The notes beneath the pieces are model-generated. The model was not told where the DNA came from and made no database searches. It saw only the letters and a program-made list of their open reading frames with translations. Below, in pieces: positions 3,189 through 55,466 of a stretch of 64,000 nucleotides of DNA. Position numbers and translations under genes: made by a program. Source of the DNA: Chloroflexota bacterium. GTDB taxonomy: Bacteria; Chloroflexota; Dehalococcoidia; Bin125. The stretch lies in the NCBI GenBank assembly GCA_009838735.1, contig VXQZ01000014.1, positions 62,001 through 126,000 on the forward strand, read 5' to 3'. The stretch's first letter is position 1; each line of letters opens with the position of its first letter.

Positions 3189-3885
3189 GTTGCGCTTCCT
3201 CGCCCTCTCGTCTCGTGTCGATCGTCACTGTATCAAGTTCAGGCGAGATTATCCGGCATCCTGTTCCTCGGTGTCAACTCGCCCTCTTCGCGGCAGCGCA
3301 TCGCCGGGTCCACCCCGACCCAGATTATGTAGGTGGTCCCACACTGTCGCGGTTCCTTCAGTTCCCGGTCCTCGGCTCGCTCCCGGCCATGCCTGCTTCA
3401 ACGGCTGCCATGCACTCTGGCACAGACCTATCGCGCCAATTCTGGCATCTCACGCTTTAGGCCACGTCCGGTTCCGATTGGCCACGGCCCTGCAAGCAGC
3501 AGTCACCGTCCTAGGAGCGGTTGAGTTCAGCCTGGAGCTCTCAACGCCGTTCAGGCGAACCTTGTACCCGGCGTGCGCCGCCTCGCGAGTGCGCTACGTT
3601 CTCAATCGTCCTGGTAGCCGCTCTTTGGGCCTTGAGCTTGTCGGCGTAGATTTCGGTCCTAATGCACGCGCTCAATCTGACGGGGCAAATCACGTGTACC
3701 GTCGTAGCGGCTGGGAACGACTCCGAGAATACGCGACCTTTCTCCTACTCATTTGGCCCGCCACCTGGACGTTGCCTCTGGCGCTACCGCCAGCACGAAA
3801 ACTGGCCCTTACGTGCCTCGAGTTCTCCTTGTCGTCGATGTAGCTCGCTTCCACTTCGTCCGTGCCAAGCACTTTCCCGGTGTGA
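3189..3885. other. Gene-poor stretch between the hypothetical group and the truncated nuclease
   Basis: About 700 bases with no frame I can support on either strand. Several frames are open for 60-90 codons, but their translations are rich in Arg, Ser and Pro in the way out-of-frame readings of GC-rich DNA are, and none has a convincing ribosome site plus a recognisable motif. The right end abuts the broken 5' end of the DUF1016-type gene, so part of this stretch may be foreign DNA joined by the event that cut that gene. Confidence 0.4.
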
Positions 3886-13339: not shown

Positions 13340-13544
13340 CGGTCGTCGAGGTCAACGTCCGGGCGCTGGACCGCTCACGAGTGGTTGTCAACTCTTGCAG
13401 GAGATGTCTCGTATGCGCCATATGATGCGCCTCACTCTCGCTAAGATGTTTCGAACATATATCTGGGCCAGCACGAGAAGAATCTCGTAGCCACACCTCG
13501 AAGTCGAGCGGACGAACACGACAAAGAGATTGAGGGGACCATCA

Positions 13545-15266
13545 ATGGAAACCAGCACTGTTCGAACCCCGGTCGCGCTCTATGCGCGAGTCTCCAGCGA
13601 GCGGCAGGATGTCGATCTCTCCGTCGCTGCACAGCTTCGCGCCCTGCGCGACTTCGCAGACCGGCACGGCTACGTCGTCGCCCGCGAGTACATCGACGAA
13701 GCCGAGAGCGGTCGAGTGGCCGACCGGCCGCAATTCCGGAAGATGCTAGACGAGGCCTCCGAAGCCAACGCGCCCTTCCAAGAAATCTTGGTGTGGAAGT
13801 TCTCGCGCTTCACCCGCAAGCGCGAGCACGCGGTCGCCTTCAAGTCGATGCTGAGGCGGCGAGGCATCCGAGTCACTTCCATCACCGAGCACGCAGACGA
13901 CTCTCCCACGGGGAGGTTGATGGAGGCGATCATCGAGAGCGTGGACGAGTTCTACTCGGAGAACCTCGCCCAGGAGGTCCGCCGCGGGATGCGCGAGGCC
14001 GCTTCCCGGGGGTTCTTCATGGCGCCGGTCGCGCCCTTCGGATACCGGCGCGTGAAGGTCCAGGACGGCGCCAAGGAGAGACCCAAACTGGAAATCGACG
14101 GAGCCGCCGCTCCGGTCGTGAAGGAGATCTTCGACAAAGCACTCCGAGGTCACGGCCTTAAGGACATTTGCCGCGACCTGAACGAACGCGGGATCACCAA
14201 CAGAGGCAGGCGCTGGCAGCGGGCGAGCCTTCACAAGCTCCTGGTCAACGAGGCGTACACCGGAACGGCAGTCTGGGGAAAGACCAATAGGGGAAAGAAG
14301 GCATCCGACCCAGTACGTGTCGAGGGAGCGTGGCCCGGCATCGTCTCGCGCGAACTGTTTGACGCCGTCGGTCAGGCAATGCGTGAGCGGGCCCCCGCGA
14401 TGCGACCGCCGGCGCGCGTGGGCAGCAAGTTCCTCTTGAGCGGATTGCTGCGCTGCGGAGCTTGCGGCAGTCCCTTCAGCATTCAGAGTGCGAGAAGCAG
14501 CAAGTTCGCCTACTACGTCTGCAGCAAGCTGATGCGCGAGGGCGCCGGCGCGTGCGAGTCGCGCTATCTCAACGCGCCCAGGGTCGAAGGCCTCGTGGTC
14601 GACAAGATCAAGGAGCGCATCCTCACCGACGAGACGATCACGGAGCTCGTGACCCTCGTCGCCGAAGAGGTCGATCAGGTGGCCGGTGAGTTGGGCGGCA
14701 AGCTCGAGGCGATCGAAGGCGAACTGGCGGACGTGCGAAAGCGGCTGTCCCGGCTCTACGAGGCGCTGGAGACCAGCGACCTGACAATGGAAGTGCTGTC
14801 GCCGCGCATCTACTCGATACGCCACCGTGAGGAACAGCTCATGGCCGCGCAAGAAGACCTGAGCCGCCAGCTTGAGAAGCGGCGCGTCGATCTGCCGAGC
14901 ACCGAGGAAATCAAGGCCTACGTAGCGGACTTCCGGGAGTTCCTCCAGCAGGGAACTTTCCCGGAGCGCAAGGCATTGATTCGCAACTTCGTCGAGGGAA
15001 TCGAGGTAGTCGGCGATCAGGCCACGCTGACCTACACGATTCCCATGCCGTCGGACGGCGCGACGAAGGAAGAAACGTCCGTTCTCTATTTCGCCAACTC
15101 TGGCCTACCAAACGGCACCATACTGCGAACTCCTTCGGACTGTTCAACTCTGGCGGCGCCTGCGCTGGTCAGGGGTGGTTCCCTGGTGGCGGGGACGAGT
15201 GGGACGCACCAGCGCTTGGCCGACCGCGACTCGCTTCGACTCAGACCGGCTGGAATGACAGTCTGA
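13545..15266 (+). CDS. Large serine recombinase / integrase of the island
   Basis: A 573-residue protein starting at an ATG with AGGGGA about 6 nt upstream. An N-terminal resolvase domain has the YARVS motif with catalytic Ser17 and downstream arginines (KFSRFTRKREHA). A Recombinase domain follows (GFFMAPVAPFGYRR to INRGRRW-like residues), then a zinc ribbon (LRCGACG with YYVCSKLMREGAGAC) and a coiled coil near residues 380-450. These enzymes insert and excise islands, prophages and transposon-like elements at short att sites. It is the last gene of the accessory region, facing plsY, so it probably marks the right edge. The last 50 or so residues (after TIPMPSDG) are not typical of the family and may be read from the DNA flanking the integration site. 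A short dyad-like segment lies upstream around 13445-13460. Confidence 0.93.
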   Translation: METSTVRTPVALYARVSSERQDVDLSVAAQLRALRDFADRHGYVVAREYIDEAESGRVADRPQFRKMLDEASEANAPFQEILVWKFSRFTRKREHAVAFKSMLRRRGIRVTSITEHADDSPTGRLMEAIIESVDEFYSENLAQEVRRGMREAASRGFFMAPVAPFGYRRVKVQDGAKERPKLEIDGAAAPVVKEIFDKALRGHGLKDICRDLNERGITNRGRRWQRASLHKLLVNEAYTGTAVWGKTNRGKKASDPVRVEGAWPGIVSRELFDAVGQAMRERAPAMRPPARVGSKFLLSGLLRCGACGSPFSIQSARSSKFAYYVCSKLMREGAGACESRYLNAPRVEGLVVDKIKERILTDETITELVTLVAEEVDQVAGELGGKLEAIEGELADVRKRLSRLYEALETSDLTMEVLSPRIYSIRHREEQLMAAQEDLSRQLEKRRVDLPSTEEIKAYVADFREFLQQGTFPERKALIRNFVEGIEVVGDQATLTYTIPMPSDGATKEETSVLYFANSGLPNGTILRTPSDCSTLAAPALVRGGSLVAGTSGTHQRLADRDSLRLRPAGMTV

Positions 15267-20036: not shown

Positions 20037-20403
20037 CTCTGAGCGACTGGGCAGCGATCGCGAGACGAGCGTCGTGGGCATTTGAGCTTCGTCCGCTGGG
20101 CCGTAGCGACATTCATCCCTCGTCGGACGTTGGATTGCACCAGAACTACATGTCGCTGGACGACCTCGACTACGGAAGTTACATAACTGGACTGATAGTA
20201 TTGCGCAGACGACGTCCGGCCACCCGCAACACGCCGTTCGGCTTCGTAGATGGCCTGTCGTCGCAGGGAGTAAGGCGCGCCACCCGCAGTCGTTCGGCCT
20301 GTGACAGGTCCACGCGTCACTGCGGGCTAGAACCGGCAGAAAGTGAGATTGATTTGCATCGAGCAGGCGGCAGCGACTCCCGCAACGCGTAGGCAGTTGT
20401 GAC
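20037..20403. other. Intergenic stretch between two small membrane-protein genes
   Basis: About 370 bases. Frames on both strands are open but read as Arg/Ser-rich shadows. No gene, repeat or RNA structure supported. Confidence 0.3.
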
Positions 20404-20568
20404 ATGCCCGATGTGGTGCTTGTTGCGGTCGCGATCTGGATCGGCGCCGCTCTGGGCGCGGCGCTGATCGCCGGACGTCAGGCGCTGAGCATTTCCATCC
20501 TTGTCATGCTGCTGGTGCTCGGTCCCCTCGGATTGATCTTCGTCATGAATTTGCGCTTTCGACGATGA
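20404..20568 (+). CDS. Small two-segment membrane protein, 54 aa
   Basis: An ATG-started frame of 54 codons giving two hydrophobic segments (VVLVAVAIWIGAALGAALIA and ISILVMLLVLGPLGLIFVM) and a basic tail LRFRR. It shares spacing and the VLGPLGL motif with the 57-residue product at 19863. Its stop overlaps the ATG of a 24-codon frame (ATGA), suggesting coupled translation of a run of tiny genes. Unknown function. Confidence 0.55.
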   Translation: MPDVVLVAVAIWIGAALGAALIAGRQALSISILVMLLVLGPLGLIFVMNLRFRR

Positions 20569-20639
20569 TCAGACTCTTCACGCTCCTGGTGGTGATCATC
20601 GTTGCGGCGGCCGCCGCCCTGTTGCTTCGAACGTGTTGA
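20565..20639 (+). CDS. Putative 24-residue membrane micropeptide
   Basis: A 24-codon frame whose ATG overlaps the previous stop (ATGA) and whose product is a single hydrophobic helix (LFTLLVVIIVAAAAALLL) between an Arg near the N-terminus and RTC at the end. Its stop lies 7 bases before the next gene's ATG. The overlap, the positive-inside pattern and the packing make a real micropeptide possible, but a frame this short can arise by chance. Confidence 0.35.
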   Translation: MIRLFTLLVVIIVAAAAALLLRTC

Positions 20640-20646
20640 GCACTTG

Positions 20647-20931
20647 ATGGCTGACAAAGACATCGACACCGTTGCGGAGACCGAGCAAGCGGGCGAGTAC
20701 CGCTCCCGACTGGTGTCCCGATTACCTTCCACGCTGGGCGACAATGACCGACGCGTGTACATCGCAGTCATCGACGTGCTGCTGCCTGAGCTGATTGAAA
20801 TGCGCACCGAATTGACCGCGCTGCGCGAGGAGATTCAAGGGACGCGTCGGGGCATGTCGTCGATGGAGGTTCGCTTCGGGCTGGTCGAAGAGAAGTTCAA
20901 CGACTTCCTCGACCGCTTTACGCCCGAGTGA
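20647..20931 (+). CDS. Small acidic coiled-coil protein, 94 aa
   Basis: Starts at an ATG just after the micropeptide frame. An acidic N-terminal region, then DNDRRVYIAVIDVLLPELIEMRTELTALREEI-like helical sequence (positions about 30-65) with heptad-spaced leucines and a C-terminal helix ending in DFLDRF. No signal peptide or membrane segment. It lies in a close-packed plus-strand run with two tiny membrane proteins, so it may be their soluble partner. No family recognised. Confidence 0.6.
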   Translation: MADKDIDTVAETEQAGEYRSRLVSRLPSTLGDNDRRVYIAVIDVLLPELIEMRTELTALREEIQGTRRGMSSMEVRFGLVEEKFNDFLDRFTPE

Positions 20932-21030
20932 CGTGCCAACCTCAAACGAAGACAATCTGTCGGGGATACTCACGGACGTCGTTGCGCGCCAGTGACGAGA
21001 TTGCGTTGGGTGCCTTGTCAACGCGTCCGC

Positions 21031-23421
21031 CTAATGGTGTATCGCGTCGAGAGGCTCCGGCTGGGCCATGCGATACCCAACACGCGGTTCGCTAAAGATG
21101 TAGCTGGGCTGATCGGCATTGTCGCCGAGCTTGCGGCGCAACTGTTTGATGACCGTGCGCACCGCGCCAGAGCGGCCGGGATGAGCTGGTCCCCAGGCAG
21201 ATCGCAACAGCTCCGCGTGGGTACGCACGCGACCGGCGTGTTTGCAGAGATCGACCAGCAGGCGGTACTCAAGCTGGGTCAGTCGCACAGGATTATCGGC
21301 GAGCGAAACACGCCGCGCGGCGAAGTCGACGACCAGGTCGTCTTTGACAAACGGCTCGTTCGGTTCGGCTGCCGTGCTCATCGTCCAGCGGCGCAGCACT
21401 GTGTGAATCCGAGCGACGAGCTCCGTCGGCGAGAACGGCTTGACGATGTAATCGTCGGCTCCATGTTCGAGGGCTCGGGCAATCCGCCGATCGCCGCCGT
21501 AGGCCGACAAAAAGATCACCGGCAGCTCCCGCAACTCGGGGACGAGGTCCAAGAGCTCAATGCCGTCAACTTCTGGCAACATCAGGTCAAGCAGGACGAG
21601 ATGGGGCCGGCGCTCAGTGATTAGCCGCCCGACGGCATCGGGATCGCCGGTCAGGATTGGTTCGTAGCCGGCCCTGGTCAATGCATCCCGAACGTGCAGT
21701 AACGTCTGCGGGTCGTCGTCCACGGCCAGGATCCGGACGCGCCGCTTTGTGCCGCGTTCGATCTCGGACACGACCTGGGGCAGCACGACCGGCTCAGGCG
21801 TACCGGGCGCCTCCGTAGCTGGCAACGTGAAGCTGAACGTCGCGCCGCGGCCCAGTCCGGCGCTCTCGGCTCTAATGCGTCCCCCGTGCGCCTCGACAAT
21901 ACCCTTGCATATGGCGAGGCCGAGACCCGATCCGGGGAGCGATCCGCCGGAAGCTGCCGGCGACTGAGAGAACTTGCGAAACAGCTGCGACAGTTGTTCT
22001 TCCGGAATTCCGTCACCCTCGTCCTTCACCCGGATCTCCACCTGGACGCCGACTGTCTGCGCCGACAGGTGGATGGGCGACGCATCGGGCGAGTGGCGAA
22101 CAGCGTTGGACAGCAGGTTGACCAGCACCTGGCTGATACGACGGCGATCGGCCATCACGAGGGGCAAGTCGGGGGGCAGGTCGATCGTCATGTCACCGCC
22201 CGCAACGAGGCTCTGGAGGGAGCTACGCGCGGCCTCGATCAATTGCCCGATTTCGACCGGCTGGGGAGCGACGGCCAGCGTACCGGCCTCAATCCTGGCG
22301 ACATCGAGCAGATCCGTAATCAGGTCCTGCATGTGGTCGGCTTGCTCTTCGATGATCCGGTGGAACTGCGTGGCGGCCGCTGGGTCCAGGGTGACTCCCG
22401 ACTGAACCAGTGTGGCGGCGGACCCTTTGATCGAACTGAGCGGAGCGCGGAGCTCGTGGCTGACCATGGCCAGAAAATCGGCGCGCATCTGCTCCAACTG
22501 CTGCAGCGAGGCAAGGTCTTGCAGCGTCACCACGACCGATACCACCTGGCCGTCGTCGGAATGAATCGGCGTGGCGTTAATGATCGTGCTGACCTCTCGC
22601 CCGTCCGGCGATTGCAACACGATCTCTTCCCCCCGTACCGTCTCGCCAGTAGTCAGGGAGCGGGTGAGCGGGAACTCGGCCACGCTCAGCTGCCTCCCGT
22701 CGCCACGCCGATAGGAGATCAGATACAACAGTTCCTCTGGGGTCTGATCCGGGTCGCGCAGACGGTCGATGATTCTTCGCGCCTCACGGTTGATTGAGAG
22801 TGGCTTACCGCCCTGGGCGTCGAACAGCACGACGCCGACCGGAGAGGTGTCGATCAATGTCTCCAGGTCGGCCCGGGCGCGCTGCTCGTCCTACAACCGG
22901 CGCGCGTTAGAGATCGCCATTGCCGCCTGAGATGCGAACAGGCTGAGCGTCTCCTCGTCGTCGGCGGTGAATGGGGACTCGCCGAGCTTGTTTCCGAGAT
23001 AGATATTGCCGACTTGTCTGCCATGTTGGCGGATTGGCGCGTACAGAAAACTGTCCACGGAGAACGGCAGCTCTCCAATTCCCAGCGATTGCAAATCGGT
23101 GGATGCGTCGACCACTCGCAGCGGCTCGGTCATTGCCGTGAGGTACTCGAAGAATTCGGGCCCGCTGGGCAAGTTGACCACGGTCTGGTGCTCTTCCTCG
23201 GTGAGCCCCGAGGAGATGAACTCGAGCGAGTTTCCCGAGTCGTCAAGCAATGTCATGCCGCCACGAGTTGCCGCCGTCAAGGAACAGGCGGCATCCAGAA
23301 CCTCACGCAACACGGCATCAAGTTCAAGGTCTTCGCCTATCCGCAGAGTTGCTTCCGTCAGCCTCGACAGCCGCTCCCGCAACACCACGTTTTCTCGTCT
23401 GAGCACATCTTCAGTCTGCAA
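21031..23421 (-). pseudogene. GAF-PAS-histidine kinase-receiver-winged helix hybrid regulator split by in-frame TAG
   Basis: One continuous frame of 797 codons except for a TAG at 22891-22893. Before it: a TTG start with GGAG 7 nt upstream, a short coiled coil, and a GAF domain ending AAMAISNARRL. After it, in the same frame: DEQRARADLETL, a PAS domain (TSPVGVVLFD), a kinase H box MVSHELRAPLSS, an ATPase domain (GSGLGLAICKGIVEAHGG), a receiver with LLDLMLPEVDG, and an OmpR-type winged helix (LTQLEYRLLVDL to RVGYRM). The family normally reads NARLYDEQR here, so a Tyr codon TAC/TAT to TAG change is the simplest explanation. The remaining frame is undamaged, so the stop is recent, read through, or a sequencing error. 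A kinase and a DNA-binding response regulator on one chain is an unusual layout. The 608-codon downstream part could be made separately if it re-initiates near 22857. Confidence 0.88.
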
Positions 23422-23832
23422 GTTTGCACTCCACTCCGAGCTGAAGCCAGGTACGTCGAGAACGTCCTGAGAGCGTTCGACTCCGATAGCTTCCTATGTG
23501 CCTTGAGTCCGGTATTCGATCGCCACACGCCATCTGCATATGTCTGTTGCCGATTTCGCACGAATCGTGCACACCTGATGATAGAAGACCTGGTGCTATG
23601 CACGAATGCGTCAACGATGTTTGCCTGGCTCGTCTCTCCGTGAGTGCACCCGGGCGGTCGACGAACTGTCGTCTGAGGATCAACGGAACTCGACTCTGTC
23701 AATTGCGGCGCCTTTCACCTGGTGCGAGTACAGAAGGTGACGGACCGACCAGTGGTGTCGCGGCGATCATCTGGCGTCTTGCGCGCCAGTGCAGAACTCT
23801 GTCGCTAACCAGTCCTAACGTTTGAATGCGCC
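23422..23832. other. Divergent intergenic region before cobD
   Basis: About 410 bases between the hybrid regulator (minus) and the cobalamin operon (plus). I looked for a cobalamin riboswitch on the plus strand (B12 box, GCCACTG core) and did not find one, in contrast to the one ahead of btuF. No gene is supportable. Confidence 0.35.
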
Positions 23833-24807
23833 ATGTCGATGTTTCCCATGATCTACTCGGACTGGTGGGCCAATCTGGCGGTCGATGTCGGCGTCATTCT
23901 GCTTGCGGTCACACTGGATTGGCTCTTACCCGAGCCCCCGGCGCGCGTTCATCCGGTGGTTTGGATGGGGCGGATGATCAACGGACTCGAGCGAATCGCG
24001 CCGCAGAGCCCGACGATGGCGCTGGTGTTTGGCGCCGGCGTTGTCGCCTTCATTGTCGCGATCTGGGGTGCGCTGGCCTGGCTGGCGATGGTTGGATTGA
24101 CCGAGTTGGGGACTGTGGCATACCTGCTGGGCGGAGCAGTCTTGCTCCGCACCTCATTCACCGTGCAGGGATTGATCATGGCCGGCGCTGCGACGCAGCA
24201 GGCACTGGAAACAGAAGGACTGGAGCGGGCGCAGCACAGTCTCCGAAGCCTGGTCAGCCGCGATCGTGCCGCGCTGAGCGCGCCGCTGGTCGCCGCTTCG
24301 GCTATCGAGTCGGTAGCGGAAAACACGACTGACAGCTACGTAGCTCCCTGGCTGGCGTTCGCGATGCTCGGCGTGCCGTTTGCGGTCGCCTACCGAGCGA
24401 TCAATACGCTGGACAGCATGTGGGGCAAGCGTGGACGCTACGAGCACCTGGGCAAGTGCGCGGCAAGGCTGGACGACCTGGTCAATCTCGTCCCGGCGAG
24501 ATTGAGCGCCGGACTGATGCTGCTCAGCGGGGCGCTGCTCGGGCTGCCAGCTCGTCAGGGCTGGCGGATAATGACTCGCGACCAGCGCACCACCGAGAGT
24601 CCCAATGCGGGCTGGACGATGTCGGCGATGGCGGGCCTGCTCGGTCGGCGGTTGGAGAAACCGGACCACTACGACCTCGGCGCGGAGTTCGCGCGGCCCG
24701 GATCCGAGGATATTGGGCACGGCAATCGAGTCGCACGGGGGACCGCCCTGCTCGGCGTTGTCGTGGCTCTGGGGGTTCTCACCCTGAGGCACTGGATTGC
24801 GGCATGA
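23833..24807 (+). CDS. cobD: Adenosylcobinamide-phosphate synthase CobD/CbiB
   Basis: A 324-residue membrane protein with several hydrophobic segments and the CbiB signatures: LDWLLPEPPARVHPVVWMGR near the N-terminus, SAIESVAENTTDSYVAPW, AYRAINTLDSMWGKR near the centre, and TESPNAGWTMSAMAG followed by GRRLEKPDHYDLG. It attaches the aminopropanol (or its phosphate) arm to adenosylcobyric acid in the membrane. The ribosome site is weak; the ATG at 23833 is the first of several closely spaced Met codons. Its stop overlaps the next ATG (ATGA), so cobD, the cobC remnant and cobQ are one translationally coupled operon. Confidence 0.95.
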   Translation: MSMFPMIYSDWWANLAVDVGVILLAVTLDWLLPEPPARVHPVVWMGRMINGLERIAPQSPTMALVFGAGVVAFIVAIWGALAWLAMVGLTELGTVAYLLGGAVLLRTSFTVQGLIMAGAATQQALETEGLERAQHSLRSLVSRDRAALSAPLVAASAIESVAENTTDSYVAPWLAFAMLGVPFAVAYRAINTLDSMWGKRGRYEHLGKCAARLDDLVNLVPARLSAGLMLLSGALLGLPARQGWRIMTRDQRTTESPNAGWTMSAMAGLLGRRLEKPDHYDLGAEFARPGSEDIGHGNRVARGTALLGVVVALGVLTLRHWIAA

Positions 24808-25391
24808 CGACGATTCACGGAGGTCTCGACACCGCCGAATTGCGCAGGTTGGGCCTCCTGGCTGAAGAGGTGATCGACTACAGCGCGAGGATCAGTCCTC
24901 TGGGAACTTCGGGACATGTGCGGCGGGCGGGCGCGAGTGTCGATCTCTCGTCCTATCCCGATCGGGACTGCCTGGACCTGCGAGGGAGGTTGGCCGAATG
25001 GCTGGGCGTCGGAACAGACCATCTCCTGATCGGCAATGGCTCGGCCGAGCAAGCCATCCGGCAGGTATGTCTCGATCTCGTCCTCCTCTGCAATCCGAAC
25101 AACCCAACCGGCCTCTACCTCGACCGCGCAAGTGTGAATCGAATCCGAGCTGCAATCCCACCAGGGAGGCTGCTGGTACTAGATGACGGCTATCGCCCGC
25201 TGTCGGACGACCTATGGGATTCGACGCCGCTGCTGGACGCCGACACGGTCAGAACAGTGCTGCTTCGCTTGGGCATCACGGTACGCAACTGCGCCTCGTT
25301 CGGCCTGCCCGGGCAAATCCGCGTGGCCGTCCGTGTTGCGGAAGAATGCGCTCAACTGGTCAGCGCGCCGCGACAGGTGCTGGGCCGATGA
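24804..25391 (+). CDS. cobC: CobC/CobD-type threonine-phosphate decarboxylase with two internal deletions
   Basis: A 195-residue frame coupled to both neighbours by ATGA overlaps. It aligns in order to the N-terminus (HGGLDTAEL, then VIDYSARISPLG and SSYPDRD), the CNPNNPTGLYL loop and the C-terminus (LLRLGITVRNCASFGLPGQIRVAVR) of PLP-dependent L-threonine-O-3-phosphate decarboxylases, which are normally about 330-360 residues. Roughly 55 residues are missing at the join near codon 92 (about 25080). Roughly 110 are missing near codon 145 (about 25239), including the S-x-x-K segment holding the PLP lysine. The reading frame survived both losses, which keeps translation coupled to cobQ, but the product cannot be a normal PLP enzyme. 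The enzyme family is clear; activity is very unlikely. Confidence 0.85.
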   Translation: MTTIHGGLDTAELRRLGLLAEEVIDYSARISPLGTSGHVRRAGASVDLSSYPDRDCLDLRGRLAEWLGVGTDHLLIGNGSAEQAIRQVCLDLVLLCNPNNPTGLYLDRASVNRIRAAIPPGRLLVLDDGYRPLSDDLWDSTPLLDADTVRTVLLRLGITVRNCASFGLPGQIRVAVRVAEECAQLVSAPRQVLGR

Positions 25392-52329: not shown

Positions 52330-53111
52330 GCGCCGCCGGTCACGTCGATCGTGACGCCGGTGACGAAGTCGGCGTGGGACGAGGCGAGGAAGCAGACCAC
52401 GTTGGCCTGGTCGATTGGTTCGGCGATCCGGCGCAGCGGGGTTCCCGCGAGCACCTGTTGGCGCTGCTCGGCGGAGCGATCCTGCCAATGTCGGCGGATG
52501 CGGTTGGTCAGGGTCGCCGACGGGGCGATCGCATTCACATTGATCCCGGACGGCCCGAGCTCCAGCGCCAGCTTGGTCGTCATGGCGATGATCCCACCCT
52601 TGGCCGCCGAGTAGGCGCTGGAACTGGTTGCGCTCTTGCCGCGCCCGGCGATCGAGGCGAAGTTGACGATCTTGCCGCTGCCCTGTCGCTTCATATGCGG
52701 AACCACCGCGTTGCAGAAGAGGAATGTGCCACTGAGGTTGAAGTCGAGCACCTGTTGCCATTCCTCCATGGTCAGCTCGTCAACGGTCGCACCTGCGTTG
52801 GCGATGATCGTCGAGCCGCCGACGCCGTTGATCAGGATGTCGATCCGACCGTACCGATCGACCACATCGGTGACGACCGCGTCAACATCCTCCTGCTTCA
52901 ATGAGTTAGCGCAGTAGGCGAGGTGCTCGCCGCCTCCGGCCTCGGCGAGCGCTGCCATGGCGCCGTCGAGCAATTCCTGGTTGATGTCGACGGCGGCGAC
53001 GGTGCCGCCCTCGGCGGCGATGATCTCGGCGCTGGCGCGGCAGATCCCGTCGGCGGCGCCGGAGATCAGCGCGATCTTGCCCCGGAAACGTGCGAATGAT
53101 TGATCGGGCAT
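52326..53111 (-). CDS. Short-chain dehydrogenase/reductase
   Basis: A 261-residue SDR; the ATG at 53111 has GGAGG seven bases upstream. Cofactor loop ISGAADGICRASAEII (Ala replacing the first motif Gly), NGVGGSTII, active-site ASIAGRGKSATSSSAYSAAKGG, and NAIAPSATLTNR. FabG-like, acting on a beta-hydroxy acyl or secondary alcohol. Lies next to an enoyl-CoA hydratase on the same strand (42 bases apart), so the pair could serve one beta-oxidation-like route. Confidence 0.93.
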   Translation of the reverse strand: MPDQSFARFRGKIALISGAADGICRASAEIIAAEGGTVAAVDINQELLDGAMAALAEAGGGEHLAYCANSLKQEDVDAVVTDVVDRYGRIDILINGVGGSTIIANAGATVDELTMEEWQQVLDFNLSGTFLFCNAVVPHMKRQGSGKIVNFASIAGRGKSATSSSAYSAAKGGIIAMTTKLALELGPSGINVNAIAPSATLTNRIRRHWQDRSAEQRQQVLAGTPLRRIAEPIDQANVVCFLASSHADFVTGVTIDVTGGA

Positions 53112-53152
53112 TGCAATTCCTCCAGTGGACATCGATCGAATGGCCTTGAGTG

Positions 53153-54010
53153 CTAGCGGCCCGCGAAGTCCGGTTCGCGGCGCTCGCGCAGCGCGGCGCG
53201 CGCCTCTTCGGCGTCCTCCGACGTGGCCAGTATCGGCGATGCGTTGGAGGTCAACACTGAGGTGGTCTCCAGGGTGCTGTCCATGGCGGCGCGGATGACG
53301 CGCTTGTTGATCCAGGTGACGAGAGGCGGATTGCGCATGATCCGCGCGCACAGCGCGCGGACCTCGTCTTCCAACTCGTCCGACGGCACGATTCGATTGA
53401 GTACGCCCCACTCAGCCGCAGTCGGACCGTCGAGATGGCCGGTGAATGAGAATTCCAGCGCGCGGCCAAGCCCGGCCAGTCGGGTCAGGTGGTAAGCGCC
53501 GCCGTTCTCAATGATCTGGCCGACCTGTTGATATGCGATAAAGCGAGTCTTCTCGCTGCCGTAGCGGATGTCGCACTGCAAGGCCATGTCCATGCCGAAG
53601 CCGGCCGCGACCCCATTGACCATCGCGACCGTCGGTTTGCGTACGTAGGAGATATCTCGCATCAGCTTGGTCAGGCCGCAATAGAACCGTTGCCGGGTCG
53701 CGTCGAGGCCGCCGGCCTCGTAGGGCGCGTTGCCGAGATAGTTGTCGTTCGGCTCGAAGTCCCCCAGATCGGAGCCGCGCACGTCGGCGCCGGCGCAGAA
53801 TCCCCGACCGACGCCGGTCAAGACGATCACCTTGACGTCGGGATCATCGTCTCCGGCGCGCATGTACTCGCCGACCTTGGCCAGCGTGCCGGTCCGCTCT
53901 GCGCCGCCGATGGCGGCGTTGAGCTTTTCGGGGCGGTTGAACTTGATCCAGAGGATTCCGTTGTCCTCCTTCTCGAACAGCAGGTAGGGGACCAGCTCGA
54001 GCTGCTGCAT
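53153..54010 (-). CDS. Enoyl-CoA hydratase/isomerase family protein
   Basis: A 285-residue crotonase-fold protein; the ATG at 54010 has AAGGAGG upstream. FNRPEKLNAAIGGAE, then GVGRGFCAGADVRGSDLGD (oxyanion-hole loop) and AMVNGVAAGFGMDMALQCD are present. At the usual ExG catalytic site it reads QVGQIIENGGAY, so the Glu positions of classical hydratases are not both kept. A CoA isomerase, lyase or hydratase with altered chemistry is possible. Upstream of and possibly co-transcribed with the SDR. Confidence 0.92.
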   Translation of the reverse strand: MQQLELVPYLLFEKEDNGILWIKFNRPEKLNAAIGGAERTGTLAKVGEYMRAGDDDPDVKVIVLTGVGRGFCAGADVRGSDLGDFEPNDNYLGNAPYEAGGLDATRQRFYCGLTKLMRDISYVRKPTVAMVNGVAAGFGMDMALQCDIRYGSEKTRFIAYQQVGQIIENGGAYHLTRLAGLGRALEFSFTGHLDGPTAAEWGVLNRIVPSDELEDEVRALCARIMRNPPLVTWINKRVIRAAMDSTLETTSVLTSNASPILATSEDAEEARAALRERREPDFAGR

Positions 54011-54119
54011 CGGATCCTCCTTCGGATGGGCGTCAACGTCTTGCGCTGGTGGTAGTGGACTCGCGACGAGACTAGCGCCCCGCAGAGGAGGAATGAGGAG
54101 GAGTCGGCAGAGTGTCTTG

Positions 54120-55466
54120 CTAGTCGAGCACCGCGACCGATGCGCCGCGGCCTTCGAGCGCTTCCCGCATTCGCCGTCGTTCGACCGCTTCGACACGTTT
54201 GGGGAACCGGACGAACAGGGCCAACGGGGCCAAGCAAACGACGACCATGCCCAGGTAGAGCAAGGCGTCCTCAACTGCCACGCCCTCGGCACGGAGCAGG
54301 AATCCGGCCGCGACCGCCCCGGCGTTACCGCCCGCACCCACGATCCCGGCAACGGCGCCCAATGCCTTCTTGTTGATGAACGGAACCACGCCGAAGGTCG
54401 CGCCCTCGGTCATCTGCACACAGATGCTGAACACGATCAGCATCGGAATGGCGAGGATCAGCACGTCCATCCGCGAGAAGGCGATCAGCGCAATGCCTTC
54501 GAGCAGCAGCACGCTACCCATGAACAGCGTGCGTCCGCGCAGCCCGGCACGGATGCCGAATCTGTCGGAGAGGATGCCGCCCGTCGTGCGAGCGAAGATG
54601 TTCATCAGACCGAACAGCGAGGCGATGACCCCGGCGAGGACGATGTCGAGCCCGAAGTTGTCCTGAAAGTAGAGCGCGGCCATGCCATTGATCGTGAGCT
54701 CGATCCCGAAGCAGCCGCCGTAGATGACGAAGAGCAACCAGACCCGCGGATCGCGTGCGGCCTTGGCGAATGCGCCCGGCTCTGTTTGCCTGGTCACCTT
54801 GCCCTGGGCGCGCAGATCCTTGAAGTCGCCCTCCGGGGCGTCCTGGGTGAATCGGTAGTAGACGATGCCCATCAGGAACAGCGCGACGCCGGGAATCGCC
54901 ATCGCGACCCGCCAGCCCAGCTCTTCGTTGGCGACAAAGAAGAGCACGCCGGTCATCACCAGCGGCATCACGAGCTGGGTGACGCCCCCGCCGAGGTTGC
55001 CCCAGCCCGCCGTCGTCGCGTTGGCGGTGCCGACCACGTTTGGCGCGAACATCACCGACGTGTGGTACTGAGTGATCACGAACGACGCGCCGATCACGCC
55101 AATCAGGAGGCGAAAGATGACGAAGGTCTCGAAGTTCTGGGAGAGGCCGATCAGCATGACCGGGAACGAGCCGAGGATCAGCAGTCCGGTGTAGGTGCGA
55201 CGCGGTCCAACCCGGTCCAGGACCCAACCGATAGCGATTCGAGCGAAGATCGTAATGAAGACCGAGGCAATCAGCGAGGTGAAGACCTGGGACTTGGTCA
55301 GGTCCAGATCCTGACGGACCTCACCCAGAAGTGGAGCGATCCCGAACCAGCCAAAGAAACAGAGGAAAAATGCCAGCCAGGTGAGATGGAAGGTGCGCAT
55401 GTGCGGCGAGGCGAAGCTCCTGAGCGTGATCGAGGTCGCCTTGCCGGCCAACTCATTCTGGTTCAC
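54120..55466 (-). CDS. narK: Nitrate/nitrite transporter NarK-type
   Basis: A 448-residue MFS protein. A GTG start with GGAGG 6 bases upstream is chosen over a longer frame. About 12 membrane segments and the nitrate-signature loops AGWGNLGGGVTQ and GAGGNAGAVAAG of the NNP family. The upstream genes encode nitrate and nitrite reductases on the same strand, fixing the substrate as nitrate (import) or nitrite. There are 165 bases between this gene and narB. Confidence 0.92.
   Translation of the reverse strand: MNQNELAGKATSITLRSFASPHMRTFHLTWLAFFLCFFGWFGIAPLLGEVRQDLDLTKSQVFTSLIASVFITIFARIAIGWVLDRVGPRRTYTGLLILGSFPVMLIGLSQNFETFVIFRLLIGVIGASFVITQYHTSVMFAPNVVGTANATTAGWGNLGGGVTQLVMPLVMTGVLFFVANEELGWRVAMAIPGVALFLMGIVYYRFTQDAPEGDFKDLRAQGKVTRQTEPGAFAKAARDPRVWLLFVIYGGCFGIELTINGMAALYFQDNFGLDIVLAGVIASLFGLMNIFARTTGGILSDRFGIRAGLRGRTLFMGSVLLLEGIALIAFSRMDVLILAIPMLIVFSICVQMTEGATFGVVPFINKKALGAVAGIVGAGGNAGAVAAGFLLRAEGVAVEDALLYLGMVVVCLAPLALFVRFPKRVEAVERRRMREALEGRGASVAVLD

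Follow-up and report, generated by a model that had tools for sequence, protein, structure and literature searches.

As a class, hybrid histidine kinases combine kinase and receiver in one polypeptide (PMC12471899), and the gene family studied here resembles them, as they are characterized there, in that HisKA, HATPase_c and REC are found in one chain. Unlike hybrid kinases in general, the family adds an OmpR-type output domain (Trans_reg_C) as well as GAF and PAS input domains. Bacteroidetes HTCS proteins have different sensor domains and AraC-type output domains.

In-frame stop codons within conserved bacterial genes (dN/dS below 1), including a TAG/CAG site, are described by Belinky et al. 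2021 as widespread and mostly short-lived (PMC7918605). The kinase gene reported here is like the alleles outlined in that work in that one in-frame TAG interrupts a gene that is conserved apart from it (dN/dS below 1). It is unlike the TAG/CAG example worked through there in that the codon of the sister gene is CGG and the TAG occurs in one assembly only. The case is one more in-frame nonsense allele of the described sort, with these kinases as host family. It is located in a 64,000-nucleotide stretch of a Chloroflexota genome, and this whole analysed stretch is called the window in the following.

Results

Layout of the interrupted kinase frame

The interrupted frame encodes a GAF-PAS-HisKA-HATPase-REC-wHTH hybrid kinase-regulator and covers window positions 21031-23421 on the minus strand (796 codons plus a terminal TAG). 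It starts with a TTG at 23421, which has a GGAG 7 nt upstream. The in-frame TAG is codon 177 (22891-22893, minus strand; context CGG TTG TAG GAC GAG) and is found in the GAF/PAS boundary region. It is preceded by a 176-residue GAF protein that ends with ISNARRL (22894-23421, minus strand, stop excluded). Past the TAG, the frame resumes with DEQRARADLETL and runs to codon 796 (619 codons), followed by the terminal TAG; no second internal stop occurs over these 619 codons. The first start codon downstream is a TTG 33 nt past the stop, and the ORF beginning there (21031-22857, minus strand) encodes 608 aa with PAS, HisKA, HATPase, REC and wHTH parts.

We searched the read-through product with Pfam, Tyr standing in for the TAG in this search alone. 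The N-terminal part shows GAF_2 (residues 32-170), PAS (185-302) and HisKA (313-380), and the C-terminal part HATPase_c (425-536), Response_reg (564-672) and Trans_reg_C (710-785). Since GAF_2 ends at 170 and PAS begins at 185, the stop at codon 177 sits between these two domains. That is, the read-through product has the complete domain order of the family (GAF-PAS-HisKA-HATPase-REC-Trans_reg_C), while the single uninterrupted reading frame, the other family trait, is lost to the TAG at codon 177. Translation and Pfam search thereby bear out the earlier note, which had described a GAF half ending in NARRL, a TAG at 22891-22893 and the same frame continuing into PAS, kinase, receiver and winged helix.

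A chance adjacency of two ORFs is ruled out, as the continuous frame matches uninterrupted homologues end to end. There is also no insertion or frameshift at the break, where the frame aligns without gaps. A phage origin was rejected as well: the region 22600-23200 has no match in the phage collection, and viral contigs give one distant match (39%, residues 606-785).

Homologues, paralogs and a second broken copy

The source genome (G000) is a 3.15-Mb draft of 56 contigs. Across 20 genomes of the order, kinase-family matches (E up to 1e-150) were found at 34 places, 32 of which are free of internal stops. The other two, i.e., the window copy and a copy in G001 (contig C11), hold one TAG each. 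Stop-bearing matches in G020, G030 and G027 were set aside, because their stops are located at the end of the protein or separate the kinase from the regulator part. A wider homologue search lists additional rows with stops, namely partial kinase matches in several genomes, G000 included, and many in G025.

Best homologue of the window copy is the uninterrupted gene G011:C2, which is 82% identical over residues 1-789. This ortholog also has the 3' neighbour (window 20392-20933) in common with the window copy, but differs from it by CGG instead of TAG at codon 177 and by the genes 5' of the start. In a tree of 38 rows, the two genes group together (support 100/99). Two further copies of the same genome, G000:C25 and G000:C45, are without internal stop and group with G009:C30 and G006:C8 (100/100), i.e., in other clades than the window copy.

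The broken G001 copy (locus L104, G001:C11:65780-72140) stems from another species of the genus and belongs to a separate clade with G005:C63 (100/100). Its TAG is codon 301 (locus positions 3474-3476, minus strand) at the end of PAS, a position at which Gln is encoded by the other 35 of 36 rows (CAG 31, CAA 4). Both TAGs share the context TG-TAG-GAC. Given the different codons and different clades, the two stops arose independently.

Some relatives are without GAF. One of them (L122, G016:C26:21270-23120, minus strand) is a frame of 654 aa with its N-terminus near the same GAF-PAS linker, and a second row (G024:C21) spans query residues 157-788.

We used two unrelated window proteins as controls. 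For one of 716 aa, none of the 29 matches in the same 20 genomes contains a stop, which is a small difference to the 2 of 34 seen for the kinase. For the other (1337 aa), 7 matches were obtained, one with a TGA, such that this control is uninformative. To gauge the background of broken genes, 35 ORFs of G011 with a best window match of at least 60% identity were compared, and 12 of them stood out by an internal stop or a coverage of less than 0.8. Of these, we accepted the kinase alone as broken; by inspection, the other 11 were judged to be antisense or overlong mechanical frames, short or repeat-like matches or cases at the window edge. Elsewhere in the window (53096-54503, plus strand), a 455-aa frame of G011 has a match of about 66% identity whose first block contains four stops on the window side; either the frame is spurious or the gene has decayed.

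Codon 177 in relatives

We compared codon 177 across 15 genomes, using 37 homologous rows, i.e., the 33 other order-wide places (E up to 1e-150) and four rows of G024, a genome outside the order; the partial match G018:C194 and weaker class-level matches were left out of this set. A stop is found in none of the 37 rows, sister and outgroup copies included, while GAF-less rows align only loosely at this codon. Arg is encoded by 33 rows (CGC 16, CGG 14, CGT 2, CGA 1), and the remaining four show CAG (Gln), CAT (His), GAA (Glu) and GGC (Gly) once each. The earlier note had expected relatives to read NARLYDEQR, with a Tyr codon turned into TAG. Neither expectation holds: the nearest relatives show RRL-R-DEQR or QRL-R-DEQR, and Tyr is encoded by no row. 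Its proposed look at the same locus for TAC or TAT in relatives thus returns a sense codon in all 37 rows and a Tyr codon in none.

The local codons are CTG CGG GAC in the sister G011, TTG TAG GAC in the window and TTG CAG GAC in G013. The sister's CGG is two base changes away from the window's TAG, and CAG, one change from TAG, is seen once (in G013). From this we infer that CGG most simply became TAG via CAG or via TGG.

Decoding of TAG in this genome

In 14 of the 15 genomes of the genus, this genome included, RF1 (prfA) exceeds the curated cut-off; the 15th (G012) shows two partial matches on two contigs. A CTA anticodon is absent from the 48 distinct tRNA genes that ARAGORN called in the stretches around Rfam tRNA matches, a census that covers these stretches rather than the whole genome. 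The Rfam search itself gave 48 matches, 47 of which were called by ARAGORN along with one extra tRNA-Thr. The weakest match (31 bits) was not called, such that the census is possibly incomplete. Among 43 mechanically chosen ORFs of the window, 24 stop with TGA, 18 with TAG and one with TAA.

RF1 is present, the called tRNAs hold no CTA anticodon and TAG ends 18 of the 43 ORFs. TAG thus looks like a normal stop in this genome, and a general recoding is not indicated.

Selection on the broken copy

Relative to the sister gene of G011, pairwise dN/dS is 0.176 before the stop (GAF) and 0.123 after it. In a leave-one-out comparison, 100 columns are constant in the 29 other homologues, and the window copy keeps 99 of them; the exception is a change from Glu to Asp at 724. 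With respect to stops and conserved columns, the view of the earlier note that everything downstream of the TAG is undamaged is thus upheld.

Under neutral drift along the whole branch, about 20-28 nonsense changes are expected; for this figure, half of the pairwise dS, i.e., 253 synonymous changes, was multiplied by 0.078-0.110 (kappa 4 to 1). Only one is seen, so the kinase gene was constrained until late.

We also compared amino-acid changes of the window branch with those of the sister branch. Using G006 as outgroup, 56 changes fall on the window branch and 29 on the sister branch, while synonymous changes are balanced (77:77). For five neighbouring genes, the same comparison yields 30:36 amino-acid and 184:191 synonymous changes (Fisher p of 0.0135 for 56:29 against 30:36). 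The excess is strongest before the stop (21:8); after it, the ratio of 35:21 is not significant on its own (p of 0.08). With two outgroups, 46:26 amino-acid changes are counted (window to sister), and the end branch in the tree measures 0.17 for the window versus 0.077. The broken G001 copy is without such an excess (end branch 0.05 versus 0.066). That is, the branch that carries the lesion shows a raised amino-acid substitution of moderate degree. Relaxed constraint, be it before or after the stop, would fit this observation, as would adaptive change.

Surroundings

Window and G011 have the 3' gene order in common (window 20392-20933). On the 5' side, the alignment with the sister locus (L116) ends at 23445, i.e., 24 bases 5' of the kinase start, such that 23422-23445 (minus strand) is the last alignable stretch, and the gene order differs beyond. 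The upstream promoter region therefore differs from that of the sister.

The window genes upstream of the kinase encode CbiB, an aminotransferase fragment within a cobalamin cluster, a cobyric acid synthase and a periplasmic binding protein. The aminotransferase (24804-25391, plus strand, 195 aa) lies about 1.4 kb from the start of the broken kinase and is CobC/CobD-like by Pfam class and neighbours. Its relatives in G004, G005, G008 and G009 are frames of 385-389 aa that match in three blocks; compared to G004, two internal stretches of roughly 50 and 90 codons are absent. It is probably a decayed cobalamin gene, and given this shortening, decay is perhaps not limited to the kinase.

Farther away, a large serine recombinase (Resolvase, Recombinase and zinc ribbon; 13530-15266, plus strand) is found near a pair of HAMP kinase and OmpR-type regulator.

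Discussion

We consider it probable that the TAG arose recently as a nonsense allele in one of three paralogous kinase genes. Were translation to terminate normally there, the 176-aa GAF protein would remain and the domains for kinase, receiver and DNA binding would be missing, which would render the window copy functionally lost or close to it. Judged from the sequence, translation most likely ends at codon 177 with a truncated product in the cell, and the kinase activity of the window copy is presumably gone. We thus deem it most likely that an ordinary mutation has inactivated a spare copy, rather than that a new decoding trick is at work. The direct basis comprises the stop itself, its absence in relatives, the intact paralogs, the presence of RF1, a set of called tRNAs without CTA anticodon and the absence of further lesions. 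Several observations weigh against a loss: the downstream part is untouched, such that a product of re-initiation or read-through is possible; the raised amino-acid change is moderate, falls short of significance in the downstream half alone and could be adaptive; and the broken G001 copy shows no comparable excess. Among the options listed in the earlier note (recent loss, read-through, split into two proteins, assembly error), recent loss fits best, and the others are kept as rivals.

A consensus error or a minority-strain allele, i.e., a wrong base or a population polymorphism with an intact gene in most cells, is unlikely. It would suit the draft state of the genome (56 contigs), the confinement of the codon-177 TAG to this one assembly (0 of the 37 other rows) and a frame that is otherwise free of internal stops and departs from the conserved columns in 1 of 100. 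However, the TAG deviates at two positions from the sister's CGG, so that a single wrong base is insufficient if the true codon equals that of the sister; a CAG ancestor, as seen once in G013, would need one base only. Moreover, a wrong base leaves the raised amino-acid change on the window branch unexplained. That change also bears on a split into two proteins, where translation would stop at the TAG and re-initiate at the TTG to yield a working GAF-less PAS-kinase-REC-wHTH regulator: downstream of the stop, amino-acid change leans upwards as well (35:21, not significant). The TTG, which is the first in-frame start (12 codons or 33 nt after the stop), has a GGAG 3 nt before it, natural GAF-less relatives begin near the linker (G016:C26 and the G024:C21 row) and the conserved columns after the stop are intact except for Glu to Asp at 724. 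On the other hand, the 3-nt spacing is poor, the start codon is a TTG and the letters GGAG-ACA-TTG are identical in the uninterrupted sister of G011, i.e., they were not made for re-initiation. We thus hold a split form of this kind to be quite improbable.

Doubtful to a still higher degree is an attenuation by read-through, in which near-cognate tRNAs would sometimes decode the TAG and thus provide mostly GAF fragment and little full-length kinase. In the E. coli reporter experiments of PMC11126739, read-through was favoured by a G as the base next to the stop, and the amino acids inserted at TAG were Tyr, Gln or Lys; the wider downstream composition had no significant effect. Here, the base directly after codon 177 is a G (no T follows for 25 nt), Gln is found at this position in G013, and the second case of the family (G001) shows an identical TG-TAG-GAC context. 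Downstream of the TAG, the RNA also folds strongly (z of -2.9), but predicted structure was uncorrelated with read-through in the reported experiments, and TAG was less leaky than TGA (PMC11126739). In 11 homologues without a stop at codon 177, z ranges from -4.0 to +1.2, with stronger folds than in the window for G014 (-4.0) and G009:C30a (-3.9, similar shape) and a value of -0.6 for the sister G011. Stop-free homologues thus fold as strongly, more weakly or differently, such that the fold appears unlinked to the stop and a stop-linked read-through stem-loop is doubtful. RF1 is present and none of the 48 called tRNAs reads TAG by a CTA anticodon, both of which speak against read-through, as does the raised amino-acid change with regard to a fully retained function. 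The cross-species conservation of the stop that a programmed read-through would need is absent from the 37 rows. We give even less credence to the idea of amber codons as reversible throttles. Here, the TAGs at 177 and 301, both near domain boundaries, would allow near-cognate tRNAs to produce a trickle of full-length regulator, while the bulk would be sensor fragment in free form, a possible competitor of the paralogs.

If the TAG is the recent nonsense allele that we favour, this uncultured Chloroflexota bacterium provides a clean example of how a multi-copy signalling gene looks soon after it has acquired a nonsense allele. The locus also calls for caution, since annotation at the level of domains would tally two proteins where a single gene is broken. 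Should expression reveal an active GAF-less kinase instead, the locus would be a case of sensor loss via a stop codon that is caught early and matches the GAF-less relatives.
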